IMG/VR virus record: IMGVR_UViG_3300046796_000064
Coordinates: 1 to 39,794 of that record
DNA: 39,794 nucleotides
DNA from: a virus
Strand: one strand, 5' to 3'
This document shows, one piece after another, positions 1 to 39,794 of this stretch. The stretch's first letter is position 1; every line of letters starts with the position of its first letter. Below the pieces are notes generated by a model that did no database searches, was not told where the DNA came from, and saw only the letters and a list, made by a program, of their open reading frames with translations. Position numbers and translations under genes: made by a program.

Positions 1-146
1 GTATTGGTGCCAGTGAACGTGTTGTTTCCATTCAGGAATATGCCAACCTGGAAGTTATCCACCGTCCATTGCAGATTGGAAGGCGATCCACAAGTCCCAC
101 CGCCAGCCAGAACTACCTTATATGCCTGAGATTCCCACCAGATATT
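1..146. repeat. Direct terminal repeat, left copy (circular overlap)
   Basis: Bases 1-146 repeat 39649-39794. The first 126 bases are identical. Position 127 is T here and G at 39775, and the remaining 19 bases match. The reading frame of the fibre gene stays open across the joined ends, so the repeat is best read as overlap of a circular (or circularly permuted, headful-packaged) genome of about 39,648 bp. A true short terminal repeat of the virion DNA is the less likely alternative. Confidence 0.93.
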
Positions 147-425
147 GGCTCTGCCTGCCGAGTTAAGAACGATTGGATTGCTGTTCTGGACCGTTCCCGT
201 AGAGTCCGTGTACGTTGGCTGGGGCGAGGATGTGCCCGCCGCATACGTGCAGACGATACCTCCAGAAAGAGGCGTGCCCGTAGCATCCAGAAACTGGGTT
301 TGTGGTTCTGGACCCACTTGTACTGGAACTTGGGCAAAAGATGTGGTAGCGTACGCGCATGCTACGCAGAGCATGGCTGCTATTCTCAATAGTATGGGCA
401 CTGCTTTGTGTTTACGCAAATCCAT
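1..425 (-). CDS. Secreted tail-fibre-like protein, N-terminal part (continues at 39794-38844)
   Basis: This is the start of the fibre gene that crosses the window ends. Read leftward from 425 through 147, then 146/39794 to 38844, the frame is open for 409 residues. It begins MDLRKHKAVPILL and has a basic n-region, a hydrophobic core and an Ala-rich end reading TTSFAQ, a convincing Sec signal peptide. The mature part has a short domain containing GTPLSGGIV and ANIWWES, of a kind common at the start of phage fibre proteins. The ATG at 425 directly abuts an AGGAG element. A TTG at 419 lies at an ideal 6-nt spacing and may be the true start. Position 127 differs between the two end copies and changes a residue between Gln and Pro. 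The ribosome-binding site and frame are seen; a fibre role is inferred. Confidence 0.8.
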   Translation of the reverse strand, partial: MDLRKHKAVPILLRIAAMLCVACAYATTSFAQVPVQVGPEPQTQFLDATGTPLSGGIVCTYAAGTSSPQPTYTDSTGTVQNSNPIVLNSAGRANIWWESQAYKVVLAGGGTCGSPSNLQWTVDNFQVGIFLNGNNTFTGTN

Positions 426-6614: not shown

Positions 6615-7271
6615 TTATGCTATCCACCAGTTGGTTCCACCATCTGAGATCATTTCAATGTCCGTATATTGAAAAGTAATCACTTGTGTAGTGGCTCCAT
6701 CAATTAAATCTCCACCGGAACGAGCTATCGTTAATGTGTTAACGTCAGCCGAGGTCTTCTTAACCCGAATAGACTTATTCAAATTAGCTGCTGCCAAAGG
6801 AAGCGTTACCGTGAAACCGCCACCACTCGTATTCCCCAAAACCATTTCATTTGCAACGGCGTTGTAATTGGCGCTCTTTGCTGTAGTGCTCCATGAGCTA
6901 ACTACGATTGCCGATATCGCCGCTTGCACGAAAGCATCCGTAGCGATTTTGTTTGTGTTGTCTCCGGGTGCTTGTGTTGGAGCGCTGGGACTGCCCGTAA
7001 ATATAGGGCTATTTAGAGGTGCCGCCCCGGTTACCTGGTTGACGTTATAGTCACCAGAAACCGCTACAACGGTGCCAGATCTACCAAAGACCGAATTGAC
7101 AAGACCTGCCGCAGAACCAGCGTTAAACTCTGAAGCTATCTGCTGGAACCACTTCATCCACCCCCAAGAGGGATAGCCAGCTTCGTCTACCTTGTTTTTG
7201 CCGCCGCTAGCGGTCCACTGCTTATCCGGAAACGGTGTCCGTACCGGAGGGGCAGGGAATTGCGTTGCCAA
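6615..7271 (-). CDS. Tail-fibre protein with phage fibre repeat
   Basis: The protein has 218 residues. It begins with TTG, preceded by GGGGAAG at about 6 nt. The middle contains NSPIFTGSPSAPTQAPGD followed by NKIATDAFVQAAI, the classic short tail-fibre repeat (PxFTGxPxAPT...G..T..IATTAFV). The C-terminal half (FTVTLPLAAANLNKSIRVKK, then GGDLIDG, FQYTDIEMISDGGTNWWIA) is a small beta domain often found at fibre ends. The N-terminus has a Trp-rich WGWMKWFQQI segment. It likely forms or attaches part of the receptor-binding apparatus. It has no signal peptide, unlike its neighbour at 7272-8492. Confidence 0.75.
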   Translation of the reverse strand: MATQFPAPPVRTPFPDKQWTASGGKNKVDEAGYPSWGWMKWFQQIASEFNAGSAAGLVNSVFGRSGTVVAVSGDYNVNQVTGAAPLNSPIFTGSPSAPTQAPGDNTNKIATDAFVQAAISAIVVSSWSTTAKSANYNAVANEMVLGNTSGGGFTVTLPLAAANLNKSIRVKKTSADVNTLTIARSGGDLIDGATTQVITFQYTDIEMISDGGTNWWIA

Positions 7272-8492
7272 TTACTTCCCCACGCACATATAGCGAAGGT
7301 GATCCGTATTAGCCCCACCCGTTTCCACGATGGTCACAGAGGATGAAGCGTAGGTATTAAATGACACCACACCCGCAGCCGAAGTCAGATCGGAACCAGA
7401 GCATGAATAAAGGGCACCTGTGAATGGAAGGGTGGTAATTGACTGGCTTGTGGCCGTATTCAATAGCACGTCACCGTAAATCGTAAATGTTCCCGTCTGT
7501 ACCGTCTTGGCGCAAGCCTGCGTGGCACCTGTAGTAGCGCCGCAATACTCCACAACCGCGTGATTGCTTAGCCCTCCATCGTCGAACAGGGCCGCACCGC
7601 TACCGCCAGTATGGGAAAGTGTTAGCGTAGAAGTTGGATTTGAACCAGATCCTAAAACGCTCTCTAATTTCCAGTTATCGTCTGAGCTGGCAGCCCCAGT
7701 CCAATACTCTCCTATGAATTCGGCAGCACCAGAAGAAACATTGGCCATGCTTGTTGCTGGGGTGTTTCCCTGAATGAAAAGTCCAGGCCCCCCATTAATT
7801 TCCGCCGATCCAAGACCACCATTTGCGGTAACATTTCCGTTAGCGTTCAACGAACCAACGGAAACATTGTCAGGCATGGATACAGTGGCTATCCCCGATG
7901 ATCCAGAATGTGCAATTGCCAGGGTGGATGTGGGATTTGTTCCCCCTCCAAGTGTGCTTTGAAATAACCAGGTATCCGCTATGCTGGCCGCTCCATTCCA
8001 TGCCGTACCAGCCAAAGTTAAGGATGGGGTGTTCTGGTTGTTCACGTTGGTTGCAGCGGTAGTATTCGTTAGGGCCGCTGCTCCCGTGGTTCCGCTGGGA
8101 GTCCATTTCAGGGAATTGCTGCAACCTAGCGTATTGGAAGCTGTTCCATAAACAATCTGATTTGTGGTGCAGCTTCCAGAGAATAGTCCAGCTCCCGTAA
8201 GAGATACCCACGAAGTCCCATTTGTACGGCAAAGTGCCGCCGTAGAACCACCGCCAGACGTGCAATCAGAGGCGCTCTGGCCGTCCGTTACCACAACAAT
8301 TTCACGTGTTGGGCTAGTCGTGGTGGCGTTAGGGAGCGTACCCACGGTGTACTGGGCAAGTGCCGTGGCGAGGGAAGACGTGAAGATATTCGTTCCCGTG
8401 AAGGTGTTGTTAGTGTCTTCGGCGGGGAAAGTATGGGTCTGGGCTGCTGCCGTGATAGGCAACAGCATTAGCAGGAACAGTAGTTTCTTCAT
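7272..8492 (-). CDS. Exported fibre-like protein with Sec signal peptide and duplicated beta repeat
   Basis: The protein has 406 residues and opens with MKKLLFLLMLLPITAAAQ, a textbook Sec signal peptide with an AAA-Q cleavage site. Next comes NNTFTGTNIF, a fibre-like strand motif shared with the gene crossing the window ends. Two copies of a ~45-residue unit follow: WNGAASIADTW..STLGGGTNPTSTL and WTGAASSDDNW..SVLGSGSNPTSTL, each ending in an H-x-G-x-SG motif. Cys pairs are scattered through the mature part. The start overlaps the stop of the gp10-like gene (ATGA). A cytoplasmically assembled virion protein should not need a signal peptide, so it may act outside the cytoplasm. Fibre identity is inferred. 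Confidence 0.7.
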   Translation of the reverse strand: MKKLLFLLMLLPITAAAQTHTFPAEDTNNTFTGTNIFTSSLATALAQYTVGTLPNATTTSPTREIVVVTDGQSASDCTSGGGSTAALCRTNGTSWVSLTGAGLFSGSCTTNQIVYGTASNTLGCSNSLKWTPSGTTGAAALTNTTAATNVNNQNTPSLTLAGTAWNGAASIADTWLFQSTLGGGTNPTSTLAIAHSGSSGIATVSMPDNVSVGSLNANGNVTANGGLGSAEINGGPGLFIQGNTPATSMANVSSGAAEFIGEYWTGAASSDDNWKLESVLGSGSNPTSTLTLSHTGGSGAALFDDGGLSNHAVVEYCGATTGATQACAKTVQTGTFTIYGDVLLNTATSQSITTLPFTGALYSCSGSDLTSAAGVVSFNTYASSSVTIVETGGANTDHLRYMCVGK

Positions 8493-10261
8493 CCTTGATC
8501 CGCTCCTGTCTTCAAGTAAGCATCCGTGATACGCCAGGGAATAGGGTCCGACATGCTGATTTCATACACGCGGTCTCTGGCTCTTCCCAGCCTGCGGAAC
8601 ATAACGCGCTTGGTGTATTCCCCAGCCTTGCCAGCTCCGGCAGAGTATTCATTGCTCCAGGTGTGCCCGCCGTCATTGGACCAGCGCAGGTTAATCATGG
8701 GGTCTCTGCCATTTGGATCACCAATTCCGGTAGTAACGCTGCTGACCAACAGGCCCCCCGTAACGCCAATCGTCGCTCCGTACCCAGATGGGCTGGTGGA
8801 AATGGAATAGGTGGTGGGATTTCCAGCATTGAATACAACCGCAGTAAGAGTTAAAAGACCGCCCGCCGTGACTCCTAGTTGCCAGGTTGTACTTGGAACT
8901 GAATCGTTAATCAGTACGGTTGCTCCGGTCCCACTACCCACAGCCACGGTCTGCAATATCCCAGCATCGGTCATGTTGACTGCCCACAGATTCGATCCCG
9001 AATCCAAGGTGAAAGAACTGGCCACCGTAGAAGGCGCAAACAGCGGGGGCTGCGGACCTAATCCAGACTCCAGATAGACCTGTAACTGCGAGTGGAATAC
9101 CCATTCCTGCTGTCCAGAGGCGTGTGGGGCGCGTCTAACGCGGCGCAAGGGGTTACCTGCATCGTCATACAGCGAGATGCTCATATTGTAAATGTTGCCC
9201 GTTGCCCAATCGCCCACGAGGTGCTTTCCGAAGGCGAATGTATGGCACTGGCTGCGGTGCGCGGTGAATATGCCGTTACTGGATACCCAGTATCCGCGTT
9301 GGTGCCACATTCCCGTAGAAACGTCATAGACCCAGGTGGCATTAGCGGTAGGGAAGTAAAGTTGGTAGAAAGAATGGCCTTGGTCTTGAAAGGAATAGCC
9401 TATTGCATCGTTAAGACCTGTCTGCCCGTACTTGGTCAGGTAGCCCTGTAAGGCAAACTCTATCGCGTGATTACTGACACGTTGTGGCGTATAGCCCTGC
9501 GCCCTCCAGACTACTCCAGCACCGCGTTCATCACCGCCAAGCCAGAGAATCGAGTTATCCAGGCGTACAGGGCTGTTAGGAGCGAAGATACCAGCCTCAA
9601 TGAATCCGCCCGGAACGATGTCAAATACGCTTGCAGATCCCGAATCGTAGTAAACCTGCGTCTGCCGTTCGCCCCAGAACCATATTTCCCGATGGTCAAT
9701 CAGCATGGACAGCACGTTCCCGGTAAATACAGAGACCTTCTGGGTATCTAGCGGGTCCCACACGGTCGCATCCAGCAGGGAAGACCACTGGAACTGGTTG
9801 GAGTTCTTAAGCAGGGCGATAAAGAAGCCGTCGATATAGCCGACCTGCGATATTGGACCCAGGAATGTAGCACCGACAAGTGGAGTAAAGGTGTTCGTGC
9901 TAATGTCGAACACATAGCACATTCCCGCACTGGCAATCAGGATCTGAGTCGTACCTCCAGCCATAGATACGAGCTTGGAATCATTCAGTAGCGTTCCAAA
10001 GTTGGTCTTGGTGCCCGCTGAATCCACTTCGTAGAACCTGCTGCCACCCACCGCAAAATAGCGGTCATTGATGATAACGGAACCGCGTACGGGGGTATCT
10101 ACAAGGTTGGAAAATACCTCAAGGCCCCCGGTAGGATAGAGCGCAATGGGAGACTGTCCCATACCTTCCGAAGACTCAGGATAGAGGTTCATCGTGAGTT
10201 GATCGGCTAAGTTGGGTGATTGGCTTGTGTAACTTGGACCGCAAAGTCCAAATGGTGGCAT
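8489..10261 (-). CDS. P22 gp10-like packaged-DNA stabilisation (neck/hub) protein
   Basis: The protein has 590 residues. The N-terminus has NLYPESSEGMG and ALYPTGGLEVF, followed by blade-like repeats (DRYFAVGGSRFYEVD, GYIDGFFIALLKNS, REIWFWGERQTQVYYDSG). The C-terminus has DPMINLRWSNDGGHTWSNE, then YTKRVMFRRLGRARDRVYEI and a final WRITDAYL. This is the standard layout of P22 gp10-family proteins, which close the neck and hold DNA in the capsid. Residues about 405-500 look like an inserted beta domain (TLDSGSNLWAVNMTDAG ... LLTLTAVVFNAGNPTTY) between the conserved halves. It follows the gp4-like gene by 2 nt, as in P22-like gene order. Confidence 0.85.
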   Translation of the reverse strand: MPPFGLCGPSYTSQSPNLADQLTMNLYPESSEGMGQSPIALYPTGGLEVFSNLVDTPVRGSVIINDRYFAVGGSRFYEVDSAGTKTNFGTLLNDSKLVSMAGGTTQILIASAGMCYVFDISTNTFTPLVGATFLGPISQVGYIDGFFIALLKNSNQFQWSSLLDATVWDPLDTQKVSVFTGNVLSMLIDHREIWFWGERQTQVYYDSGSASVFDIVPGGFIEAGIFAPNSPVRLDNSILWLGGDERGAGVVWRAQGYTPQRVSNHAIEFALQGYLTKYGQTGLNDAIGYSFQDQGHSFYQLYFPTANATWVYDVSTGMWHQRGYWVSSNGIFTAHRSQCHTFAFGKHLVGDWATGNIYNMSISLYDDAGNPLRRVRRAPHASGQQEWVFHSQLQVYLESGLGPQPPLFAPSTVASSFTLDSGSNLWAVNMTDAGILQTVAVGSGTGATVLINDSVPSTTWQLGVTAGGLLTLTAVVFNAGNPTTYSISTSPSGYGATIGVTGGLLVSSVTTGIGDPNGRDPMINLRWSNDGGHTWSNEYSAGAGKAGEYTKRVMFRRLGRARDRVYEISMSDPIPWRITDAYLKTGADQG

Positions 10262-12293: not shown

Positions 12294-12956
12294 TTAAGTC
12301 CAAACTACCGGACCGGAGTTAGTGCCCGTGCCACCGGTCGCGATAACGTGATAAAGCAGGTTGCAAACACGGAGCTTGATACCTGCTCCGATTTGTGCCG
12401 GGAAGGTGCAGATCGTACGGAGTCCGGAAGCACTGGCAACCGCAAAAGCTGCCGTTGCTGCCGTAACCGTATGGGCCTGAGCCGTTGCGCTCCAGATGTC
12501 GATAATGTTTCCTTCGTCACCCGCTACTGGCGTGGGGAGCGTAATCGCATCCACTCCAGCAGTCATGACAACGTTGTAAGTCGACACGCTGGAAAGAACC
12601 GCATCAGCAGATCCGATCAGTTTCACCGCATTCTGCGTGGTGCCCTCAAGGGTCTGCTGGCTGGTTTGCAGGCTTCCGTAGCTCTCAATGAACTTCGGGA
12701 AGTCTGTAGTCAGACCAATCTTGATAAGTGCTCCGTTGGCGTGGGAGGCTGCTACCGTACCACCCTGGCCACGAAGGACACTGATCTGGGTTCCGTTTAC
12801 GGCAATCACCAGGAACTGTTCCTGCTCGATAATCAGGACGGTGATACCGGACCCGGTTTGGAAGTTGGGGGCAGTAATGTTAGCAGCCGAAGCCACCGCC
12901 ATTATTGTCTGCGAAGCGTCAAGAGATGCTGCAAGGGTTGTGGTTGTGATAGACAT
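12294..12956 (-). CDS. Virion structural protein, head-associated, unknown fold
   Basis: The protein has 220 residues from the ATG at 12956 (MSITTTTLAASL), 1 nt after the coat gene stop. A longer frame would start at a TTG inside the coat gene. The N-terminal 80 residues form a beta domain (ITVLIIEQEQFLVIAVNGTQ, then ISVLRGQGGTVAASHANGA) typical of phage head-region proteins. The C-terminal half has DAITLPTPVAGDEGNIIDIW and a final beta hairpin. Its position directly after the coat gene suggests a decoration, vertex or head-fibre base protein. Confidence 0.68.
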   Translation of the reverse strand: MSITTTTLAASLDASQTIMAVASAANITAPNFQTGSGITVLIIEQEQFLVIAVNGTQISVLRGQGGTVAASHANGALIKIGLTTDFPKFIESYGSLQTSQQTLEGTTQNAVKLIGSADAVLSSVSTYNVVMTAGVDAITLPTPVAGDEGNIIDIWSATAQAHTVTAATAAFAVASASGLRTICTFPAQIGAGIKLRVCNLLYHVIATGGTGTNSGPVVWT

Positions 12957-12957
12957 G

Positions 12958-14178
12958 TTAGCTCGCAATCCTTACCGCAAGTTGCGGATACAGCGTGGAC
13001 CACCCACCGAGAAGATCCATACGGAGGGGTGCTCGGTCCATGTTGATGTCATAATCCCGAATGACGCGGATCGACATCTTCAGGTCTTGATCGTCAGAGA
13101 TACGATCACCCATGTCCAACCCGCCATACAGCGGCAGATCGGCAGAGGCAAAAGTGAAAGCATCTTCGTGGAAGGCCAAACCGCGCTGGCCAGTCACCGC
13201 CGAAGCTCCGTTGACCGTCACCGCGACGTTGTTAGCAACGCCAACAGTCACGTTCTGGTAGGGGCCCGTGGTGATGATGCCAGTGCCGTTGATGGCGATG
13301 GGGATAGTCGCGTTTCCGCCGCTGTCCGAGGTAACGTCCGCAGTCACAACAAAGTCAGCCAGGCGGTTAAACGAGGCCAAGCTCTGCGGGTTGACTGCGA
13401 ACACGTTTCCGAACTGGATCACGTCGCCGCGATTCAGAACTTGGATAGAGGCGGTCCAACCATCGGTGATGATGGAAGATCCGGTCTGTGTGGTGGCGCT
13501 ATTGGCAAGCGGGGTTCCGCCCTGGAGTCCGACCGTGTGGTTTCGCACGTTCTGATCCATGTACCAATCGAAGCCAACCGTATCCTCGGTCATCATGCCC
13601 TTGTCGTACTGTTCGGTAATGGTTCTCTGGGGATTAAACAAGCCAGAGAGGGCATTAACGATAGTCGCGTTCATGTTGGGGCTGATAACTACGCACCGAT
13701 CTTCAAGCGGAGCAGCTTCGTTAGACAGAAGAGCGCCCGCATCAAGATAGGTCTGGAGGGTGTTGGGGATTGTTCCAGGGGTACCGACTTCGTTGTTCAC
13801 GGTCTTGTACAGGTCCAGACCGTCGTAGTCGATTTCGTTCGCCATGCTCTTCATGGCCTTATCAATGAAGCGTTTACGGAAATCGTCCACGCTCAAGGCA
13901 AGGTCAGCAGAGGTAATGGCAAAGGAGCGCTGATACTGCTTGTTCAGCACCACCGGAACCGAAGATTCCGTCAGATCCTGAAGAATCAGGCCCTGGCCGG
14001 AACTGGCCACGAAACGCACAGGCAATCGCACGTTGAGTACGTTGCCAATCTTTGCGCCAGCCTTTGCAAACTGGGAATCATATGCTCGGCTGATCTGTTT
14101 CGTGAACGTAAGCTCGTTCTCAAGAACGCGCAGAGTTTCACGGGTAATCATACCGATTGTTAAAAGTGTGTTACTCAA
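12958..14178 (-). CDS. Major capsid protein, P22 coat (gp5) family
   Basis: The protein has 406 residues, near the 430 of P22 gp5. The N-terminal part has ITRETLRVLENELTF, then GNVLNVRLPVRF and the helix SVDDFRKRFIDKAMKSMANE. The middle has VVISPNMNATIVNALSGLFN and GFDWYMDQNVRNHTVG. The C-terminus has DLKMSIRVIRDYDINMD and a final GGWSTLYPQLAVRIA. This pattern and the scaffold-portal neighbours identify a P22-type HK97-fold coat protein. The start codon is TTG (14178-14176), but AAAAGGAGG at 14184-14192 gives one of the best ribosome-binding sites in the genome with a 5-nt spacer. An insertion around residues 280-330 (beta-rich, TSDSGGNATIPIAING) may be its I-domain-like part. Confidence 0.88.
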   Translation of the reverse strand: MSNTLLTIGMITRETLRVLENELTFTKQISRAYDSQFAKAGAKIGNVLNVRLPVRFVASSGQGLILQDLTESSVPVVLNKQYQRSFAITSADLALSVDDFRKRFIDKAMKSMANEIDYDGLDLYKTVNNEVGTPGTIPNTLQTYLDAGALLSNEAAPLEDRCVVISPNMNATIVNALSGLFNPQRTITEQYDKGMMTEDTVGFDWYMDQNVRNHTVGLQGGTPLANSATTQTGSSIITDGWTASIQVLNRGDVIQFGNVFAVNPQSLASFNRLADFVVTADVTSDSGGNATIPIAINGTGIITTGPYQNVTVGVANNVAVTVNGASAVTGQRGLAFHEDAFTFASADLPLYGGLDMGDRISDDQDLKMSIRVIRDYDINMDRAPLRMDLLGGWSTLYPQLAVRIAS

Positions 14179-25939: not shown

Positions 25940-25941
25940 AA

Positions 25942-26115: not shown

Positions 26116-26195
26116 CCATGAGCCTAAGAGGGAAAGCATTCAATAGTGCACCAACGATACACGGAAGGTAGTACAGACGGCAGAAGGGAGTTCGT

Positions 26196-26510
26196 GTGCC
26201 TAAAAGTAAGCAGAAAATAGAACTACCGAGTTGGTTAGACCAAAAAAGCTGGTCCGATTACCTCGAAATGAGACGCGCCATAGGTAAGCGAATGACCTTC
26301 AGGGCACAAGAGCTAGCCATTATGAAGCTGGCAGCACTCAGGAATGAAGGCGAAGATCCAACGCAAGTGTTAGAGCAGTCTATATTTTCAAGTTGGCAAG
26401 GGTTATTTCCAGTCAAACAAAACGGGAGGCAACAATTCAATGGCCGAGGACCAATTAGTGCTAAAGACGCTTTCAACCAGACCCTCAAAAACTTTGGAAT
26501 TACTCATTAG
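26196..26510 (+). CDS. Replisome-organiser C-terminal-domain-like protein
   Basis: The protein has 104 residues. It starts with GTG behind AAGGGAG. The core, SWSDYLEMRRAIGKRMTFRA then LAIMKLAALRNEGEDPTQVL and EQSIFSSWQGLFPV, follows the conserved C-terminal domain of phage replication initiators (W..Y...R...K..T.RA...L..KL..L...G.DP..VLEQSI..GW.GLFP). That domain is thought to bind DNA or the helicase loader. Here it stands alone, without the usual N-terminal winged helix. The next gene, overlapping by 71 nt, looks like a helicase loader. Confidence 0.65.
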   Translation: MPKSKQKIELPSWLDQKSWSDYLEMRRAIGKRMTFRAQELAIMKLAALRNEGEDPTQVLEQSIFSSWQGLFPVKQNGRQQFNGRGPISAKDAFNQTLKNFGITH

Positions 26511-27027
26511 GACGCGACTGGCTCGTCTCGCAGCTATCTACGGGCGGGCAGTAGAGGCCGAGACTCTGAGTGTTTGGATTGACGCGGTGAAGTTTATAAC
26601 TCCAACCCAGATAGCGGCTGCGTTCGATCTGCTGGAAGTTACGTTCATACCAACGGCAGCGTGTCCGTTCCCAGTTCCGGCAAATCTCTTGAAGTTTACG
26701 GAGGATGCTCAATCCAACCAAGAGGTAGTTAATGCGGGGATAGCCTGGGAAGACCTCTTGTTATGGATGCAGCGGTATTACCGCCCCGATTGCCGGGATA
26801 AGCGTTATCCGCTCATGGAAAGCAAGATGACGCACGCCGCCAATGCAGCTGGAGGACTGGAACACATCTCCAGTTGCCCGATAAAGGATCTTGCCTGGGC
26901 CAAGAAGAGATTCACGGAGGCATATCTGAGTCTGGCTAAACTGGAAGAGGATCGCCCGCTATTGGCTTCTGGCGATGTAATGAAGCAGATAGCCTCTGTA
27001 GCCGAAAACAAGTCACTGCGTGGCTAG
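26440..27027 (+). CDS. Putative replication protein, possible helicase loader
   Basis: The protein has 195 residues from the ATG at 26440, with GGGAGG about 10 nt upstream, inside the end of the previous gene. The N-terminal part (RLARLAAIYGRAVEAETLSV then WIDAVKFITPTQIAAAFDLL, and FPVPANLLKF) resembles the layout of small phage helicase-loader proteins (Tyr/Gly start, W..AL, ...I..A...., FP..A.L). The C-terminal half is helical (MTHAANAAGGLEHISSCPIK). Helicase loading by this protein would recruit the host DnaB, consistent with the absence of phage helicase and polymerase. The similarity is weak. Confidence 0.5.
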   Translation: MAEDQLVLKTLSTRPSKTLELLIRTRLARLAAIYGRAVEAETLSVWIDAVKFITPTQIAAAFDLLEVTFIPTAACPFPVPANLLKFTEDAQSNQEVVNAGIAWEDLLLWMQRYYRPDCRDKRYPLMESKMTHAANAAGGLEHISSCPIKDLAWAKKRFTEAYLSLAKLEEDRPLLASGDVMKQIASVAENKSLRG

Positions 27028-27070
27028 AATCGTCTCTAATTGCTATTAACGGTATATCTGGAGGGCGTCT

Positions 27071-27748
27071 GTGACTGAAGTTGTCATACAAAGCGGTTCT
27101 TTGGCTGGACCACAAGAAGCGGCCAACATTACTCGCTCACTGCAGGACGAATACTTGGGACTCCAGGCCCGCTGGGTGGATCTGGCTCGCCGTGTCCAGT
27201 TGGCGCTAGACCGCAGGGTACCGCAAGCTCTGGGGATGGGAGTCAGGGAATGGCTGCATAAGACCTTTAACCGGGATAGCCATTACCTGGAGAAGCAGAT
27301 GGACAATCTTCGGGCACTTCAGGGGGTGCCCGAAGAGATTCTAGGCCAGATCAGCGACTTCAACGCTGACCAGCTCGTAAGGCTACCGGAAGCAGACAGG
27401 AATAAGCCTGAGATTCTTAAGGCAGCGGTTGACCTCGTAGATAAGCCAACCGAGTTCAGGAATATGGTAACCGAGATCAGGAAAGCCAAGTACGGGATCG
27501 AGAAAGAGACGTGGACTAGTCTGGTTCGCCCGCTGCCGTCTAATCTGGTCGAGCGTTGGGAGGTGCAGGAAAAGCGTATAGCCGCAGGGTTGGGAGTAAG
27601 GCTCCCCAGGGCTCAAGAAGACCTGAAGGGCTGGAAGCATGGAGAAATTAACGTCTGGGAGTGGCTGATTACGGCAATAGAACAAACAGACGTTTGGCAG
27701 CTCCATGCTTGGATTCACGATCAGAACCCAAATGAGAGGGAAGAATGA
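27071..27748 (+). CDS. Helical hypothetical protein
   Basis: The protein has 225 residues and a GTG start behind GGAGGG. It has a long N-terminal helical region (LQDEYLGLQARWVDLARRVQ and LGMGVREWLHKTFN) and a possible helix-turn-helix-like stretch around HYLEKQMDNLRALQGVPEE. The rest is alpha/beta with many Trp. It could be a DNA-binding or partition-like factor, but no family is certain. It sits between replication genes and nuclease genes and is coupled to the next gene (ATGA). Confidence 0.6.
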   Translation: MTEVVIQSGSLAGPQEAANITRSLQDEYLGLQARWVDLARRVQLALDRRVPQALGMGVREWLHKTFNRDSHYLEKQMDNLRALQGVPEEILGQISDFNADQLVRLPEADRNKPEILKAAVDLVDKPTEFRNMVTEIRKAKYGIEKETWTSLVRPLPSNLVERWEVQEKRIAAGLGVRLPRAQEDLKGWKHGEINVWEWLITAIEQTDVWQLHAWIHDQNPNEREE

Positions 27749-27903
27749 AGTTCACATTTGAAGAATTAGCAGATCTTATTTGTGAGTTCACGAAGGATGG
27801 AGCGCGTCCCGATAGAAGGGATGTTGTGCATTGGTTCAAGTGGCTTGAAAAGAAGTGCGGGGTCAAGAAGTCACACATTCAAATATTTGGGAGAAAGTCT
27901 TGA
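27745..27903 (+). CDS. 52-residue hypothetical protein
   Basis: ATG at 27745 overlaps the previous stop (ATGA). It begins MKFTFEELADLICEFTKDGA and includes RRDVVHWFKWLEKKCGVKKS. It looks like a compact three-helix domain, with an HTH-like spacing at the end. The stop overlaps the TTG of the next gene (TTGA). Function is unknown. Confidence 0.6.
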   Translation: MKFTFEELADLICEFTKDGARPDRRDVVHWFKWLEKKCGVKKSHIQIFGRKS

Positions 27904-28277
27904 AACCAACCTGTCCCCATCACCCGAGTATGCGTATGCGCCTGGTCTCTTCCGGGGAACCTATGTTCACAAATACACGCAGCTCCTTTAGCAATGATAA
28001 GCGTGAGCAGAAACTGAAGGCAAAGAAGGAAGAAAGAAAGATCTGGCGTTGCGGTGCTCCTGGTTGCCCTCGCGTTCAGCATATGTTCTCCGAGCCAGAG
28101 CTTTACCTGTGCGTGGGAAGGGGCTGTAAGGAATACGCAGACGGGGAGTTGACAGCTAGGTCAATCTATAGGTGTAGGGCTTGCTACAAGAAGTACAATC
28201 ATGAGTACTGGGACAAGGTAGGTAGGGCCAATCATAAGAGAAACGGGAGAATGAATGCCAAGTCCGCTACAGCGTAG
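27900..28277 (+). CDS. Cys-rich zinc-binding protein
   Basis: The protein has 125 residues from TTG at 27900, which overlaps the previous stop (TTGA) and has GGGAG 6 nt upstream. The frame is also open from a GTG at 27855, inside the previous gene. WRCGAPGCPRVQHMFSEPEL, YLCVGRGCKEY and YRCRACYKKYNHEYW give at least three Cys pairs, and the ends are very basic. Two zinc sites are likely. It overlaps the nuclease gene by 23 nt. Nucleic-acid binding is inferred. Confidence 0.62.
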   Translation: MKPTCPHHPSMRMRLVSSGEPMFTNTRSSFSNDKREQKLKAKKEERKIWRCGAPGCPRVQHMFSEPELYLCVGRGCKEYADGELTARSIYRCRACYKKYNHEYWDKVGRANHKRNGRMNAKSATA

Positions 28278-30179: not shown

Positions 30180-30479
30180 GTGAAACGAGCAATTATAGTT
30201 GCTTTATTGTTGTCGGGCACGGTATGGGCGCAGCAGTCGGTAAAAGACGCCCCTCCGAAGCCTGAATGGATTCCTGACCCAAGTGCCGGTCACTATGACT
30301 GTCCCGCTGGATGGATGGCCTATCAGAAGGCCGAGCCGCCTGTGTTGTGGGATGGTCCGGTGGCGGCGAGTGCGAGCTCCACTTCAGCCGTTTATATCAC
30401 GCCACCAAAGGACAAGAAGGGCCATTTGATCGGCGCTCAGCCACCGCCACCAATTTGCATTAAAGAACCGGCGATCTGA
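30180..30479 (+). CDS. Small secreted Pro-rich protein
   Basis: The protein has 99 residues and a GTG start behind GGGAGG. The N-terminus MKRAIIVALLLSGTVWAQ is a clear Sec signal peptide with a WAQ cleavage region. The mature part is Pro-rich with two Cys (HYDCPAGW and PPICIKEP) that may form a disulfide. No family is known. Its exported nature in the early arm is notable; it could act in the periplasm early in infection. Confidence 0.65.
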   Translation: MKRAIIVALLLSGTVWAQQSVKDAPPKPEWIPDPSAGHYDCPAGWMAYQKAEPPVLWDGPVAASASSTSAVYITPPKDKKGHLIGAQPPPPICIKEPAI

Positions 30480-31622: not shown

Positions 31623-32048
31623 TTGCGAAAGCTACTGATTCTACCCTTGTTACTGGCTCTTACGGGATGCTCTGATCCTTACGGGACTGCTGCCAAGCTC
31701 GCTCAGGACGTTGCCGTTACTGTGAATCAGGCCGATGTAACCGTGGATCAGTTCCGCGTGGCTGGTACGGTCTCTGCTGATGAAGAGCGGGCCATTCTGG
31801 GCTATCTATCCTCGCTGAATACCCTAGATGGCGCGTATATCGGATGCGTACAGGCAGCGCATGGCAATACGGGCACGGTGGGAGGGTTCACGGCTTGCGC
31901 TCAGAACCTAGCCTCATCCGTAGGCAATCCGGCCACACTTGCAGCCATCCACGTATCTAATCCAGATACGCAGGCAAAAGTTACGGCAATCGTTCAGGGA
32001 ATTGTGACGCTGGTGGATACGACTATCACCGCATTGAATGGAAAGTAA
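31623..32048 (+). CDS. Lipoprotein (lipobox LTGC)
   Basis: The protein has 141 residues. The TTG start has GGAG 7 nt upstream. MRKLLILPLLLALTGCSDPY is a lipoprotein signal with lipobox LTGC and acylated Cys16. The mature part is helical and small-residue-rich (AAKLAQDVAVTVNQADVTVD) with two more Cys. The residue after Cys is Ser, favouring outer-membrane sorting under the E. coli rule. It could block superinfection or stabilise the envelope, but that is inference. Confidence 0.7.
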   Translation: MRKLLILPLLLALTGCSDPYGTAAKLAQDVAVTVNQADVTVDQFRVAGTVSADEERAILGYLSSLNTLDGAYIGCVQAAHGNTGTVGGFTACAQNLASSVGNPATLAAIHVSNPDTQAKVTAIVQGIVTLVDTTITALNGK

Positions 32049-33563: not shown

Positions 33564-33769
33564 ATTTTGTTAGCCTGAATCCTTTTAGCTGTCCTATTGG
33601 ATACTTGTCTTAAAGCGTTCCATACTTTGTATCTGGGCAACTGCCACAATCGCTGATGGGCCTTACGGGACAGTCGGTTATGGCACCTGCAACATATCCT
33701 TGCCGACCTACAGAGCTTCCTGCGGGACGGCAGAACCTTTCTCTCGTGGCATCTGTAACAAAGAATCAA
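33560..33769 (-). CDS. Small basic zinc-finger-like protein
   Basis: The protein has 69 residues from TTG at 33769, overlapping the endolysin stop (TTGA). CYRCHERKVLPSRRKLC and ICCRCHNRLSRKAH give CxxC/CxxC pairs with many Arg/Lys. It resembles HNH-flanking or ribosomal-type ribbons. It is coupled at both ends (TTGA, ATGA). Nucleic-acid binding is likely from charge; the role is unknown. Confidence 0.58.
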   Translation of the reverse strand: MILCYRCHERKVLPSRRKLCRSARICCRCHNRLSRKAHQRLWQLPRYKVWNALRQVSNRTAKRIQANKI

Positions 33770-34260
33770 GCGTCTAATCCCGTGTCATCCCACACCGCTT
33801 CTTGTCCTCCGGTCTCATAAGCTGCCCTTACCGCATCGTCTGGGCTTACCGGGAGTCGTCCTGTGAGTTGGAAGTGTGGGTAGTCTGGAAAGGTTCTCCA
33901 TTTGGCACCTGCAACAAGCCCAACGGATTCACCAACAGCCACGATACGTTTCCAAGCTGGATGACTTGCATTCCAGTCGGGTATTCCGTTGTCGAATGGG
34001 GCAACATCGGCTGCGAGACCGTAATTGTGCCAACTGGTTCCTGGTTTGGCATGGGTAACAACCAATGACTTACTGACCACATTTCCATTTGCGTCCCTAC
34101 CTTCAGCGTACAATGCAGCCTGTTCCTTCCAAGATCTGAGAGCCGTAGTCACCCGAATAGTTATGTTCTCCAGTGCCAGAAGTTCAGCCATTGACCTGAC
34201 CTTCTCGGCCAGTGCGGGATGAACTTCAGCCAGAAGTTTCTCGGAGAAGGAGTCCATCAT
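33766..34260 (-). CDS. Endolysin, peptidase M15 (L-alanyl-D-glutamate or D-Ala-D-Ala type)
   Basis: The protein has 164 residues. TTALRSWKEQAALYAEGRD, THAKPGTSWHNYGLAADVAP with His78 and Asp85 as zinc ligands, and FPDYPHFQL with His129 match the HxxxxxxD...H set of M15 peptidases, as in T5 endolysin. It cuts peptidoglycan peptide stems. No signal peptide is seen, so release needs a holin. Two membrane-protein genes lie just upstream. The start is ATG at 34260 or 34257 in an ATGATG overlapping the previous stop. Confidence 0.85.
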   Translation of the reverse strand: MMDSFSEKLLAEVHPALAEKVRSMAELLALENITIRVTTALRSWKEQAALYAEGRDANGNVVSKSLVVTHAKPGTSWHNYGLAADVAPFDNGIPDWNASHPAWKRIVAVGESVGLVAGAKWRTFPDYPHFQLTGRLPVSPDDAVRAAYETGGQEAVWDDTGLDA

Positions 34261-34478
34261 AGCCGGATGTGGTCCACCTTGGTTTCGATTCTGGACAGAC
34301 TGTTCATAATGTCCCTGTGTCTGGCTTCGTACTCGTCCCTGGTTATGAACTTTGCTGCTATGGATTGACTGCTACTGCCATTGCCGTTCTTGCCGATCAG
34401 CGATTTGGCCCAATTCAATCCAAGGATAAGGCCCGCAACTACTCCACCACTAGCCCCACCGTTAACGATGTCGCTCAT
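34257..34478 (-). CDS. Small membrane protein with coiled coil, lysis-related
   Basis: The protein has 73 residues. One hydrophobic segment (GGASGGVVAGLILGLNWAKS) is followed by a linker and a charged coiled coil (ITRDEYEARHRDIMNSLSRI). It is adjacent to endolysin and holin candidates and overlaps both. It could be an antiholin, a small holin or an inner spanin-like factor. The choice is uncertain. Confidence 0.6.
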   Translation of the reverse strand: MSDIVNGGASGGVVAGLILGLNWAKSLIGKNGNGSSSQSIAAKFITRDEYEARHRDIMNSLSRIETKVDHIRL

Positions 34479-34783
34479 TCCAGCACCACAGGCTTGTGTA
34501 CTACTGGACTGGGAATTGAATTAGGTGTTGGATTGGGTGTTGGATCTGGAAGCGTGGGAGTAGGCGGCTGTCCATTAGCCGTCTGGCCGTCCGTACGGGC
34601 AATGCGTCCCGTTAAGATCAGGATGAGAGCGCCTATTACGGTTGAAACCTCCGTCTCTATCCACTTAAGCGTATCTCCATCTACGCTATGGTGGACCATA
34701 TGCATAATCAATAGTCCACCGATGATTACCAGGATGAATAGAAGAAGCTTGTCCGTGTTGTGGTTTATCCAAGAGTCTTTCAT
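34475..34783 (-). CDS. Holin candidate
   Basis: The protein has 102 residues. Two hydrophobic helices (LLLFILVIIGGLLIMHMV and VSTVIGALILILTG) with a charged loop between are followed by a Pro-rich tail (PPTPTLPDPTPNPTPN). Two-span membrane proteins next to an endolysin are usually holins. The Pro-rich tail might extend through or along the wall. ATGA coupling links it to the next gene. Confidence 0.62.
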   Translation of the reverse strand: MKDSWINHNTDKLLLFILVIIGGLLIMHMVHHSVDGDTLKWIETEVSTVIGALILILTGRIARTDGQTANGQPPTPTLPDPTPNPTPNSIPSPVVHKPVVLE

Positions 34784-34795
34784 GGGGTTCCCCTG

Positions 34796-35176
34796 TTATT
34801 TACTGACAACCGCCAGCCCCGACGGAGCCGCCGGTTTGTCCCCCAAAAAAAGTGCACTCACTTCATTTGAATTGGGAGATTCACCGAATTGGTTAGAGGC
34901 GCTGACCACGTAAAAGTAAGTCGTGCCAGCCGTGCCCGTAGTGTCGACGAAGCTGGTCTGCGTAGATGGGACTGTGGCAATCGTCACTTCTGTACCCGCG
35001 CTAGCGGATCGCTTGACGTTGTATGTAGCCACTGCACCGCCCGTGGTGGGAGCCGTCCAAGACAGCGTGTTACTGTGCGTTCCTTGACTTTGCCCGATTC
35101 TTGGCCAAAACACGATCAATGCGATGACTGCCAGAAATATTACTGTTGAGGTGAATCTGGAACGATTCGAAACCAT
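34796..35176 (-). CDS. Membrane-anchored or secreted fibronectin-III protein
   Basis: The protein has 126 residues from ATG 35176, with GGAGG about 6 nt upstream; this excludes the TTG at 35191. MVSNRSRFTSTVIFLAVIAL continues to IVFWPRIGQSQG, a signal peptide or anchor. The mature part is a single FN3 domain: NTLSWTAPTTGGAVATYNVK, then TYFYVVSASNQFGESPNSNE, with the typical W and Y positions. FN3 domains on phage products often aid weak carbohydrate binding. It belongs to the exported group in this half of the genome. Confidence 0.75.
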   Translation of the reverse strand: MVSNRSRFTSTVIFLAVIALIVFWPRIGQSQGTHSNTLSWTAPTTGGAVATYNVKRSASAGTEVTIATVPSTQTSFVDTTGTAGTTYFYVVSASNQFGESPNSNEVSALFLGDKPAAPSGLAVVSK

Positions 35177-35327
35177 GACCTTCCTCCACAAGTTGAGATA
35201 GTCTTACAAGATCAATCTTGATATTTGCCGAGTGCTCAACCAGTTCTTCGTAGTGCGGACTGCAATAATCGTGCCCATCAAATTCGTGATTCGCGAATCC
35301 TGAACAGAAGCGGCACCTAAAAAGCAT
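35070..35327 (-). CDS. Possible small zinc-binding protein overlapping the FN3 gene
   Basis: The protein has 85 residues from ATG 35327, with GGAAG close upstream. MLFRCRFCSGFANHEFDGHD and YCSPHYEELVEHSANIKIDL form a CxxC...CxxH pattern. The C-terminal 35 codons overlap the FN3 gene by 107 nt, which is longer than usual here, so the end may be poorly constrained. The start overlaps the barrel-protein stop by 11 nt. Confidence 0.45.
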   Translation of the reverse strand: MLFRCRFCSGFANHEFDGHDYCSPHYEELVEHSANIKIDLVRLSQLVEEGHGFESFQIHLNSNISGSHRIDRVLAKNRAKSRNAQ

Positions 35328-36183
35328 TTGCTTCCGTTGCCCTACGCCTTGGAAACTCCATAGACAGAATGCTGCTGAATGCTCCGCTACTGGCTCCTGA
35401 CCGTGGGCATGTAGTGGGTCCATATGTGCCATCGCATTGCGGATTGCCCTGGGTCAGTACATGGCCAATCTTGAAGTCAAATGACAGGCGAAAGCAGAAA
35501 TTCAAGTGGCAAGCTACTCGCATATCCAGATTAAACTGCCCTGCCTTAAGGTGTGCACTTTCAGTGCCCGTAGCATCAATGCCATTCTGTAATTGGGTGA
35601 GGTAATCGAAGGTGAATCGCATTGGTATTCCGGGCTTGGCTGTACGGTAGGTAATTCCGCCCGCTGCGTATTCGGCGTGCTTGCTGATTGAGACCTTGTA
35701 GTTGGAGTATTCAACATTGCCATTAACCCCCACAGACTGCGTAATCCAGCCAATACCGCCCGCATAGACCTGATTGGCCCAGCCATTACCGAGGGCTATG
35801 TGCTGCTCTATGGGTGAGAAGTTATCCTTCAGGTCCAGTTCGAAGTGCCGCGTAATAGGCCATTCCAGGGCCACGGAGGGGCCAAAGAAGAGATTCCCGA
35901 AGCTGCTACCCATATTGGCCCCAACTAATGCCCTGAAGCCCCCAGAAGGAGCTGTAACGATAGGGCCAAGGTCATATACAAATGGGGCGGTGGTTGGTGC
36001 TACTCCCTGCTCATTGAAAGTGAAGCAGGACATATCCGCAGAGCAGATTAATGCGGGCTGGAAAGTCTTGGATTGCTGACAATTATTGTCACATTCCAAG
36101 GATGCCTGAGCAAATGCGGGGGAAATACAGAAAAGAGCAACTAAAAGGACTTCGCCTGACTTTCTCCGTAACCAAGGTGCCAT
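35317..36183 (-). CDS. Putative outer-membrane beta-barrel protein
   Basis: The protein has 288 residues. A basic start (MAPWLRRKSGEVLLV) and ALFCISPAFAQ form a Sec signal peptide. The mature part has a Cys-bearing N-terminal segment, then alternating amphipathic strands of about ten residues with Gly/aromatic girdles: GGFRALVGANMGSSF, NLFFGPSVALEWPI, HFELDLKDNF, GGITYRTAKPGIPMRFTFDY, CFRLSFDFKIGHVLTQ and a near-terminal FSSILSMEFP. This is the look of an 8-10 stranded outer-membrane barrel. A barrel would place a phage protein in the host outer membrane, perhaps for receptor masking. Homology is not established. Confidence 0.6.
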   Translation of the reverse strand: MAPWLRRKSGEVLLVALFCISPAFAQASLECDNNCQQSKTFQPALICSADMSCFTFNEQGVAPTTAPFVYDLGPIVTAPSGGFRALVGANMGSSFGNLFFGPSVALEWPITRHFELDLKDNFSPIEQHIALGNGWANQVYAGGIGWITQSVGVNGNVEYSNYKVSISKHAEYAAGGITYRTAKPGIPMRFTFDYLTQLQNGIDATGTESAHLKAGQFNLDMRVACHLNFCFRLSFDFKIGHVLTQGNPQCDGTYGPTTCPRSGASSGAFSSILSMEFPRRRATEANAF

Positions 36184-36211
36184 GTACTGATTTTATATGC
36201 TGTAGCAAGTA

Positions 36212-37240
36212 CTAGGACTTAGTGCAGTAGATCACCTTTACGAAGGCGGAGCGATTATCCATGCTATTTAAAGTGCCTGTCACGGATGATGTTCCGTTAG
36301 TTCCCGTGGCAGTTAGTGTGTGGGTATGTGTCCCCAATGCGCTGCCCGTGAACGTCTCTGCGGGTATGGTGGAAGTGGCGTTAGTTGGGACTCCGGCAGG
36401 CCATGCAACGGTACCCGCTGGCGTGAAGGCTGCGGTTCCGTTTGTCCCAGCAGGAGTGATGGACGCCACACCCCCAGATGGATTGGCGCTAGTAGCAGTG
36501 ATGGAGTCCCCTGCGGTGATGGCTCGTGCGCTACCGCCGGTCGCAGTGCTGGTCATAACGTGTGTTCCGGTCGTGGCCGCCGTGGTGCCGCCCTGCACAA
36601 GCGAAGTAACTGTGATTGTGTGCGTGTGGTTGATGACGCTTGAAAACGGGGTGCCTGTGAACGTCTCCGCGGGAACTGTCCCAGCGCCGCCCGTGAATGT
36701 AGGCACGCCCGCAGGCCACGACACAACTTGTGCAGGTCCAGTTACGGTGCCATTCGTTCCCGCCGGGGTGCCCGCACTTACTGCTGAAGTAGTGGCGCTA
36801 GACCCAGTAAATGCTTGGGCTGCTGCCGTGAGAGTAGCTACCGTGGGCGTAACCGTATTGGCCCCTCCAGTTGCTCCAATATCTCCATTCGCTGCGACCG
36901 TGCCAAGCGGCATGGCTGCATTCAGCGCAGAAACTTCTGTGTATCCAGATGGGCAAGATCCAGAGACCACCATTGCAGTAAGACCGGACGGAACTCCACC
37001 GGCCGCTGAATCATCGACCCACGCTACTCCCGTGCATGTCCAGAGGTGTCCATTACTTGACTGAATGTAAACACTTCCAGGTGCATATGTGCTGGAAGTC
37101 CCGCAATTGGTTGGCGCTCCCGTTCCACTGCCTATAGACGTATTGGGAAGCTGGGCAAGCGCGGTCATGGAAAGCGGATTACGCACCAGCGCCAGAAAAA
37201 GAGCGAAGCAAGCAATCGTGAATGTGGCTTTATTTAGCAT
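36212..37240 (-). CDS. Exported tail-collar-like fibre protein with internal repeat
   Basis: The protein has 342 residues. The N-terminus (MLNKATFTIACFALFLALVR, ending SMTALAQLP) is a Sec signal. Next come CPSGYTEVSALNAAMPLGTV and DIGATGGANTV, then Thr/Ala/Gly-rich strands, and a final NRSAFVKVIYCTKS, the layout of collar-type fibre ends (PxGY...G...TGG...THTH...VIYC). A unit with GTNGT, WPAGVPT, AETFTG and HTHT occurs twice (first centred near residue 190, second near 295). Such domains usually bind surface sugars. Confidence 0.68.
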   Translation of the reverse strand: MLNKATFTIACFALFLALVRNPLSMTALAQLPNTSIGSGTGAPTNCGTSSTYAPGSVYIQSSNGHLWTCTGVAWVDDSAAGGVPSGLTAMVVSGSCPSGYTEVSALNAAMPLGTVAANGDIGATGGANTVTPTVATLTAAAQAFTGSSATTSAVSAGTPAGTNGTVTGPAQVVSWPAGVPTFTGGAGTVPAETFTGTPFSSVINHTHTITVTSLVQGGTTAATTGTHVMTSTATGGSARAITAGDSITATSANPSGGVASITPAGTNGTAAFTPAGTVAWPAGVPTNATSTIPAETFTGSALGTHTHTLTATGTNGTSSVTGTLNSMDNRSAFVKVIYCTKS

Positions 37241-37246
37241 AATTCC

Positions 37247-38824
37247 TCAATATGCAAAGCAGCTCACCGCGAGGACATCATTATCTACCCAGACGGCGGT
37301 GCCTGAGATATCAGTATAGTTCTGAAGGGCTGCATGGGTCGTATCGGAGCCGGTGGCCTTTTGTTTGGTCTGGGAGACGGTGGTACTGGTCGTGGTTATG
37401 TCAGTGGCATAGCAATTCCAACCAGTAGTGGCAGTAGGGAGGCCAATGATTCCAGTCCCGGTATTGCTTGTCCCAACGTTGATTCGGAAGGCAGCGGTAC
37501 CGTTACTTGCGGTGACGGACGCGCCAGTTCCAAATCCCGATGATACGCTGGGTGCGGTTGCGGAAATCAATAAATTAGAGCTAATGTCGATGTCTTTGAA
37601 TGAAGATGGGTCGGCTACGGAAAAGAATGACCATTTTGTGGTACCTACGGCGGGATCTGCGTAAAATCCATACGTTGTCGTAGGGGCAGTTCCTGCACCA
37701 AAGTGAGACCTGAATCCATATACGGTTGTGACAGGAGTAGCGGAAGCAAATCCAGGCTTAAATTCAAAACCTGTTAAAGTTGCTGCTGTTCCAGCGCCTA
37801 TATCTACGTTTGCCTGATAACCAAATAAGTCACCACTTACTGCCCCGACTGCATCCTGAACTAATGCAGCCTGGTTAGAGGTTGCTCCGCCTACGCCCCC
37901 CGTTCCTTCGATATACACATTGCTTTGAGTTCCAAAAACTCCAGAACTAGCTTGATCGGCAGTCTGAAATGAGACCATGGTCTCCTGAGAAACAATATCA
38001 AATTTACCGTCGGGGCCATGATCCTCCATCACCGTATTTGATGCGGTCGTATTCGTGGCAGCGGCTATTGTACTGGTGTTCAGCACGTTGGCCTGAAGCG
38101 CACCAAGATTCCCGGCAAAAAGGAAATTGTTTTGCGTAAAGGCATTGAATGACGCGTCAGGAGAACCAGCTAGTAACATCGGACCGGTTTGCGTGGCACT
38201 GAATGGCGGTAGGGTAACAGTTGTATTGGCATCGGCTTTTGTTTTGATGGTTGCCTCAGCATTCGTGGCATCCCATACCAAATTCGCATCGCAGGTCAGC
38301 GTGTTGTTCGTTCCATTTTCATAAGCCACTCCGCCTGAAGTGGTGCAGGAGGTTATGGAACCACCTGAACCACCACCCGCACCTTCTGAGCGGGCAGAAG
38401 CGGTGGAAAGGTTAATCGCCGCAGCAACCGTGCCGCTGGTATATGTGGAAACCCGGATGCGGATACGCTGATAGCCGGTCACATTGGCTTGCCATGCAGC
38501 ACTAAGACCAGAGCCAGATTCCGCGGATGAAGTTACCGCTCCCGTGCCATCGCTTGCAGCAGCACTAATAGCCACCCACTTAGCATCTGCCACCTGTACG
38601 GTAAGGGGATCTGCGGAGGCTTCAAACTGAATAACCACATTCATTGTTCCCGATATTTTAAAGGTAGCGCCTCCAACGTTTTCGGGAACATTGAGAACCA
38701 AGCAGGACCTTGATTTACTGCAATCCGTGCTATCGGCATTCAAATTACCAGTAACACCGTTCTGTGCGAACGAGGGCGGTCCGAGTAAAGCCAGGAACAA
38801 AGACACGTACAGAATTTTCTTCAC
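37247..38824 (-). CDS. Exported tail-fibre-like protein
   Basis: The protein has 525 residues. MKKILYVSLFLALLGPPSFAQ is a Sec signal peptide (cleavage after FAQ). A Cys-containing beta domain (TDCSKSRSCLVLNV) follows, then a beta-rich middle with repeated YGF/YGY strands (GDLFGYQANVDIGAG, TVYGFRSHFGAG, TTYGFYADPAVG). The C-terminal domain has SSGFGTGASVTASNGTAAF, then TTGWNCYATDI and WVDNDVLAVSCFAY, a fibre-tip arrangement seen in environmental phages. Receptor or surface binding is inferred. Confidence 0.7.
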   Translation of the reverse strand: MKKILYVSLFLALLGPPSFAQNGVTGNLNADSTDCSKSRSCLVLNVPENVGGATFKISGTMNVVIQFEASADPLTVQVADAKWVAISAAASDGTGAVTSSAESGSGLSAAWQANVTGYQRIRIRVSTYTSGTVAAAINLSTASARSEGAGGGSGGSITSCTTSGGVAYENGTNNTLTCDANLVWDATNAEATIKTKADANTTVTLPPFSATQTGPMLLAGSPDASFNAFTQNNFLFAGNLGALQANVLNTSTIAAATNTTASNTVMEDHGPDGKFDIVSQETMVSFQTADQASSGVFGTQSNVYIEGTGGVGGATSNQAALVQDAVGAVSGDLFGYQANVDIGAGTAATLTGFEFKPGFASATPVTTVYGFRSHFGAGTAPTTTYGFYADPAVGTTKWSFFSVADPSSFKDIDISSNLLISATAPSVSSGFGTGASVTASNGTAAFRINVGTSNTGTGIIGLPTATTGWNCYATDITTTSTTVSQTKQKATGSDTTHAALQNYTDISGTAVWVDNDVLAVSCFAY

Positions 38825-38843
38825 TTGAAATTACTCCTTTCGA

Positions 38844-39794
38844 TTAGTTAACACTGGGAATGACTGTAATTTGGTAAGTGCTGTGCCCCGATCCGGTAGC
38901 GGGGGTAGCTGCAATGTCTGTGGTATCGAGGTTCATCACGCCTTTAAGCGTAAAGGTCTTAACGTCGCCATTCTGGTAGTCAACCGAACTGAATCCACCG
39001 AAAGAACTGGTCCCGATTCCTGAGTTGGATACGCCCGTTTCAGAAGCTGCCATTTGGTTGGTACCGTCATCTACCCACACAGTCATCGTGCGGTTGTTTA
39101 CGCTGTTGTGCTGGAAGAGCGAGTAAGAGATAAACACTCGGAATGGACCGCCCACAGAAGGGAAAGTGACTGCCTGGGTCGCAATGGTCGTGGTGCCCGT
39201 AGTGACCGTAATGCCCGATACGTTGTTGCTGTACACTGCGGGAATCGTCTGCGGAATAACTGCCCAACCTGCTACCGTGGGACTAGATGCTGTCAACACC
39301 TGATTAGCAGTGGGCGTTCCGCTGATCGTTACTCCGTTAATCGTGGCGCTTGTCTGAGCATTCATGGTTGTAAATACAGAGGTATTGGGTGCCGTGGTTC
39401 CAATCGGGCAGGGTGATGCCCAATCGCAACCGTCCAAGAGGTCAGCGTTCAGGTTGGTAACCTTGGTTGTGCTGGCAACGATAAGGGGAGGTGTGCCAGT
39501 GCCTACCGTAGATTGGAACTGATTAGCGACAATGGTCCCGGTAAACGTGGGAGATCCTGAGAAGTTGGGATTCCCTGTAAAAGTACCGTTCATGGAACCG
39601 CCAGCGTTCATATTCACAGCGCCGTTGAAGTTGGTGGTTCCGTTGAATGTATTGGTGCCAGTGAACGTGTTGTTTCCATTCAGGAATATGCCAACCTGGA
39701 AGTTATCCACCGTCCATTGCAGATTGGAAGGCGATCCACAAGTCCCACCGCCAGCCAGAACTACCTTATATGCCGGAGATTCCCACCAGATATT
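38844..39794 (-). CDS. Secreted tail-fibre-like protein, C-terminal part (starts at 425 across the ends)
   Basis: This is the C-terminal part of the 409-residue protein whose signal peptide lies at 425-340. Repeated short strands NTFTGTNTFNGTTNFNGAVN and GSPTFTGTIVANQ lead to DLLDGCDWASPCPIGTTAPN, a short fibre segment with a Cys pair. The domain ending AGWAVIPQT and VYSNNVSGITVTTGTTTIAT is a beta-sandwich tip (FRVFISYSLFQHNSVNNRTM). A GTG at 39710 could be mistaken for a start, but it lies in the middle of the open frame. Confidence 0.78.
   Translation of the reverse strand, partial: NIWWESPAYKVVLAGGGTCGSPSNLQWTVDNFQVGIFLNGNNTFTGTNTFNGTTNFNGAVNMNAGGSMNGTFTGNPNFSGSPTFTGTIVANQFQSTVGTGTPPLIVASTTKVTNLNADLLDGCDWASPCPIGTTAPNTSVFTTMNAQTSATINGVTISGTPTANQVLTASSPTVAGWAVIPQTIPAVYSNNVSGITVTTGTTTIATQAVTFPSVGGPFRVFISYSLFQHNSVNNRTMTVWVDDGTNQMAASETGVSNSGIGTSSFGGFSSVDYQNGDVKTFTLKGVMNLDTTDIAATPATGSGHSTYQITVIPSVN
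39649..39794. repeat. Direct terminal repeat, right copy
   Basis: Repeats 1-146 with one base difference (39775 G, 127 T). It covers the part of the fibre gene just after its signal-peptide domain. Confidence 0.93.

Follow-up and report, generated by a model that had tools for sequence, protein, structure and literature searches.

Why should a tailed phage carry tailspike and fibre genes whose products open with export signals, when tailed-phage assembly is generally taken as cytoplasmic? The window (the whole stretch analysed, 39,794 nt of virus record IMGVR_UViG_3300046796_000064) raises this question: an earlier note, made from its letters alone, had pointed to five large fibre-like or barrel proteins with signal peptides and proposed a coordinated, undescribed phage system at the surface of the infected cell. 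All of the ORFs that it named were present where it had placed them. By its sequence the window can be classed as a P22-like podovirus record, with P22-type portal, coat and head-closure proteins, and its portal matched P22-like portals down to E=2e-95. Its ends (1-146 and 39649-39794) repeat the same 146 bases apart from one difference, which turns a Gln of gene A into Pro; this reflects either a circular or permuted molecule or an assembly overlap with a variant. Because the ends share these bases, gene A spans the junction and forms a 409-aa ORF on the minus strand, running from 425 to 1 and on from 39794 to 38844; in a near relative (L093) the gene is contiguous and 98% identical.

Signals were called with a home-made score that combines the n-, h- and c-regions with the cleavage site. 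Gene A and genes B (7272..8492), C (35317..36183) and E (37247..38824), all on the minus strand, together with a 99-aa protein (30180..30479) and a lipoprotein (31623..32048) on the plus strand, scored 6.8-7.8; every other ORF in the window scored 5.8 or less. Apart from the lipoprotein, whose signal is of the signal peptidase II type (LTG/C, the slash marking the predicted cut) and had been anticipated, these have the Sec/signal peptidase I form: a charged n-region, a hydrophobic core and an AxA-type site. The signals measure 31 aa in A (333..425; MDLRKHKAVPILLRIAAMLCVACAYATTSFA/Q), 17 aa in B (MKKLLFLLMLLPITAAA/Q), 25 aa in C and 20 aa in E (MKKILYVSLFLALLGPPSFA/Q), and the 99-aa protein reads MKRAIIVALLLSGTVWA/Q. 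B and E are fibre-like proteins of 406 and 525 aa with 8 and 6 Cys, respectively, and C has 288 aa with 8 mature Cys. The remaining large protein, the 342-aa fibre-like repeat protein D (36212..37240, minus strand), has a signal-like N-terminus that was not called, with an Arg after the hydrophobic stretch; a 310-aa relative in G001 is similar. The small FN3-domain protein (34796..35176, minus strand; Pfam fn3, 3.2e-7), also counted as exported in the earlier note, has an N-terminal hydrophobic segment that was not called in the window, but its G001 relative scores 7.0. Shine-Dalgarno-like sequences lie at the starts of A, B and E, with no clear one at C or D, and the ATG of B overlaps the stop of the upstream head-closure gene. 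A search of the window fibres against Pfam gave no useful match.

Behind its signal, gene A carries a tailspike head-binding (tail-anchoring) domain (residues 32-128; 42..332; Cys59 and Cys112) and then, as its sequence suggests, a low-complexity fibre shaft with a beta-rich tip (38844..39794). In 30 phage records, most of them from Vibrio, Shewanella, Rhodoferax and Xanthomonas phages, the tailspike begins with a domain that matches this one, and identity to signal-less tailspikes is 35-50%; in 6/6 of these records examined, the tailspike starts at the domain. A profile of the domain matched, at E=2.6e-15, PDB entry 7eeq (cyanophage Pam1, 'Tailspike head-binding domain') and also 9vyg, the tail complex of cyanophage Pan3. 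Foldseek with a low-confidence AlphaFold model of A (mean pLDDT 48) agreed with the profile, returning 9vyg and 7eeq. On these matches, A combines a virion anchor with an export signal that precedes it. Signal-less homologues begin MAV..P..QF.D..G.PLAGG and A reads signal/QVPVQVGPEPQTQFLDATGTPLSGG; mature A starts at the same point as signal-less tailspikes. The usual, though not strictly defining, tailspike form starts at the domain with no signal, as do 78 of the 80 best viral-contig homologues, which begin at or near it; the other two are L132, which bears a signal, and one with an ambiguous reading frame. A is the only tailspike identified in the window, and no tailspike copy without a signal was found in near-clade records. 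Because of this, and because its mature N-terminus is a head-binding domain, A is most likely the virion's own spike. Host-surface adhesins or receptor masks, among the options of the earlier note, lack support as the main reading, since that N-terminus is the one used by the tail machines of Pam1 and Pan3.

Relatives were gathered by the head-closure gene, and the head-closure (hub) protein was also used for a tree; in one relative (L018, in G009) this gene reads as split or interrupted, with one internal stop. The fibre genes bear signals in the near clade and none in the far clade. Over full records, signals were found on 72/597 near-clade genes and 3/249 far-clade genes, the latter three being one 118-aa family. 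The signals on the A, B, C and E set are real rather than chance, because 46/233 large genes (250 aa or more) from 14 same-clade records bear them, compared with 0/99 in six outgroup records. All of the near-clade tailspike domains that were found carry a signal, yet the signal sequences are dissimilar, and relatives have others in place of that of gene A. The hub tree shows a single change of signal state, with support of 100/100 for the signal-less side. Homologues of E in G009 and G016 have signals too, and L011 and L012 share the N-terminus of B (signal plus QTHTFPA); E and D had no relatives in the phage collection. The exported set recurs in related phages, as the earlier note had asked to be checked, and its view of the set as coordinated is supported. 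A general property of P22-like phages was rejected as the explanation, given the signal-less large outgroup genes and the lack of a signal on any Burkholderiales prophage tailspike.

The nearest bacterial genomes, located by hub alignment, are Acidobacteriota: the cultured Acidicapsa dinghuensis 4GSKX, whose prophage lies within a 1.16-Mb scaffold and is a member of the window clade, and several MAGs. The head-binding domain occurred in four of 396 Acidobacteriota genomes, three times with a signal, and in five of 300 Burkholderiales genomes, never with one (0/5). From these nearest genomes, and from signal-bearing domains being found in Acidobacteriota and in none of the Burkholderiales, we infer an Acidobacteriota host for the window. 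Two records do not follow this pattern: L246, a distant domain in an Acidobacteriota genome, has no signal, and L205, which bears one, was binned as Betaproteobacteria, perhaps as a misbin. About half of the clade signals end ...A/Q. Gln at +1 occurred in 10/14 signals from Acidobacteriota flanking DNA versus 0/3 from Pseudomonadota, and the phage signals imitate the host style.

The signals are linked to cysteine content. Exactly two Cys were present in 15/18 signal-bearing head-binding domains (including that of L205, which the score missed although its N-terminus is plainly signal-like) versus 1/135 signal-less ones; Fisher's test gave p of about 6e-17, a guide only as the sequences are related and not independent. 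The other three signal-bearing domains have no Cys. Of the mature signal-bearing proteins that contain Cys and have Gln close to the cut, 32/37 had even Cys counts, whereas signal-less proteins had 124 even and 134 odd counts. Because the exported domains hold two Cys and mature counts tend to be even, the pairing points to folding in an oxidising compartment, and the link between signal and paired Cys may be taken as indirect support for export.

No signal was called on the ejection proteins, coat, portal or hub; in the window these include the major capsid protein (12958..14178; phrog_283, 3.1e-68) and the head-closure/tail hub protein (8489..10261; phrog_578, 5.4e-100), both on the minus strand. 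A tail fibre protein on the same strand (6615..7271; phrog_4209, 7.6e-17) has neither signal nor Cys and is an internal contrast to the exported fibres. The head-adjacent protein encoded directly after the coat gene (12294..12968, minus strand, TTG start) lacks a signal in the window, while related proteins in six relatives bear signals, suggesting gain or loss inside the clade. Genes A, E, D, C and FN3 share a strand, and this exported-fibre cluster is followed directly by two small ORFs and then by the endolysin gene (33766..34260, minus strand; phrog_465, 4.6e-25). The small ORFs (34257..34783, minus strand), between endolysin and FN3 gene, are holin candidates, with no PHROG match. Separately, a large ejection-type protein without Cys (537-2876) has a HEAGH motif (TARHEAGHAVISELL) resembling zinc peptidases; a Pfam search with it gave no match.

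Signals were also found in cultured phages of Acidobacteriota, the Tunturi isolates, reached through a weak sequence match. Tunturi 1 and 2, of podovirus morphology (PMC11924767), have them on gp12, gp13, gp14, gp16 and gp17, and the siphovirus Tunturi 4 on gp113 and gp114. Some of these proteins are annotated as tailspike, tail fibre or virion structural protein, and all except gp16 have 8-34 mature Cys; coat, portal and other core proteins have no signal. The signal bearers of Tunturi share almost no sequence with those of the P22-like clade, belonging to other phage lineages with other fibre genes. Tunturi 3 (L303), which has the same host as Tunturi 2, was scanned and had no signals, fibres included, which makes it a natural control. 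A universal property of Acidobacteriota phages is thereby rejected and, as L246 lacks a signal too, export is not obligatory for them.

We propose that, in the window phage and its clade, the tailspike and several fibre proteins would start as Sec pre-proteins, be cleaved after ...A/Q on export, and fold in the periplasm, where disulfide bonds would form. Capsid assembly, together with that of portal, hub and ejection proteins, would take place in the cytoplasm as usual. Holin and endolysin would then open the cell and let the cytoplasmic and exported pools mix, whereupon the conserved head-binding domain could attach exported spikes to the tail hub and so complete the virion, either at lysis or just after it. 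In P22 the tailspike is the last part to attach, and in vitro it can be joined to particles. We think that this whole course, from Sec export through periplasmic oxidation to joining with cytoplasm-assembled particles at or after lysis, is probably right. Export of the tailspike and fibres is well supported; that the signals are in fact cleaved, that disulfides form and that joining follows export are steps that we infer. Among the roles that the earlier note offered, post-lysis action on the virion fits best and the surface system fits in part.

Several lines favour this course: the shared start of mature A and signal-less tailspikes and the fit to 7eeq and 9vyg; the 78/80 signal-less homologues against a uniformly signal-bearing clade, with a single change on the hub tree; the two-Cys domains and even Cys counts, with no signal on ejection, coat, portal or hub proteins; and the signals of Tunturi 1, 2 and 4, the host-like +1 Gln and the position of A, E, D, C and FN3 upstream of the endolysin. 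Against it stand the home-made nature of the score, the signal-less Tunturi 3 and L246, the window head-adjacent protein without its relatives' signal, the three Cys-free signal domains, the Betaproteobacteria bin of L205 and the low-confidence structure models. B, D and E, moreover, have no recognised tail-anchor domain, which leaves room for them to act in the envelope.

Extended to the whole set, that last point becomes a different account, which we regard as unlikely: instead of being virion parts, the exported proteins would remain with the infected host, inside it or at its surface, and act as adhesins, receptor masks or superinfection blockers. Protein C speaks for it. Its top structural matches were outer-membrane barrels (Z about 9; model pLDDT 42), and its C-terminal Phe recurs in signal-bearing relatives; C is barrel-like and probably a barrel of the outer membrane, which would place it in the envelope and not among the fibres. 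The lipoprotein and small secreted proteins that accompany the set point the same way. Such a set does not explain why A keeps a full tail-anchoring domain, why near-clade records yielded no signal-less tailspike copy or why signals also occur on the head-adjacent protein family and on Tunturi tailspike and virion structural proteins. Only C and the lipoprotein are likely to act in the envelope.

Alternatively, export might be slow or partial, with an unexported or internally started pool building the virion and the exported pool, for example, masking receptors on debris. In its favour, the window has a GTG four codons inside the domain, and several relatives have GTG or ATG codons close to the cut. 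However, the window GTG has no Shine-Dalgarno-like sequence, and in L025, L208, L015 and L040 the next start comes 14, 51, 52 and 134 codons inside the domain. As no start is conserved, a conserved internal start giving a cytoplasmic form was rejected; the paired Cys also suggest that the oxidised form is the functional one, and we consider dual targeting improbable. That the hydrophobic N-termini are mis-called starts (the case that the earlier note named against itself) or uncut anchors carried in the virion is hardly credible, despite the uncalled D with its Arg and the start of C, given the good start contexts of A, B and E with the start/stop overlap of B, a signal form conserved while its sequence diverges across lineages, a cleavage-site pattern like that of host signals, the Cys link and the 0/99 large outgroup genes.

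Among known systems, the nearest are P22-like podovirus tailspikes with a head-binding domain. Those of Rhodoferax phage P26218, Xanthomonas phage PBR31, Vibrio phage VvAW1 and Shewanella phage X14, and of Pam1 and Pan3, share with the window the N-terminal anchoring domain, at 35-50% identity, and a P22-type gene set, but they start at the domain with no signal, whereas the window type has a Sec signal and usually two added Cys inside the domain. The filamentous phage coat proteins pIII and pVIII are Sec-dependent virion proteins assembled outside the cytoplasm, as is predicted here; filamentous phages, however, are extruded through the membrane without lysis, and the window is from a tailed phage whose endolysin gene adjoins the cluster. 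A tailspike fold acting outside the cytoplasm is described for WceF of Pantoea, a secreted tailspike-like enzyme that works in biofilm and is bacterial, not a phage protein (PMC7949094). The open literature searched held no description of Sec signals on tailed-phage fibres, in line with the earlier note's 'undescribed', although absence there is not proof of novelty; the terms 'signal peptide' and 'SignalP' are absent from the text of the Tunturi paper (PMC11924767).

Prior export of receptor-binding proteins would, if it occurs, change where and in what order virions are assembled, how assembly is coupled to lysis, and the chemistry of the fibres (disulfides, perhaps periplasmic modification). 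There is about an even chance that many Acidobacteriota phages, podoviruses and siphoviruses alike, have a periplasmic, disulfide-bonded host-binding apparatus and complete their virions at or after lysis. The phages concerned infect one of the most abundant soil phyla, and cultured pairs carrying the trait are at hand (Tunturi 1, 2 and 4 on Tunturiibacter; the Acidicapsa prophage). Phage adhesins may also go unnoticed where an annotation pipeline takes a signal peptide as a mark of a host-like protein.

Among the relatives, a segment of signal plus head-binding domain occurs in G013 (about 25800-28100; L199, L201 and L202) as three tandem copies, two short and one full, which looks like a tailspike cassette array. 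A relative of the barrel protein C, with a clear signal, is found in L092, a much larger viral contig of 100,810 bases.
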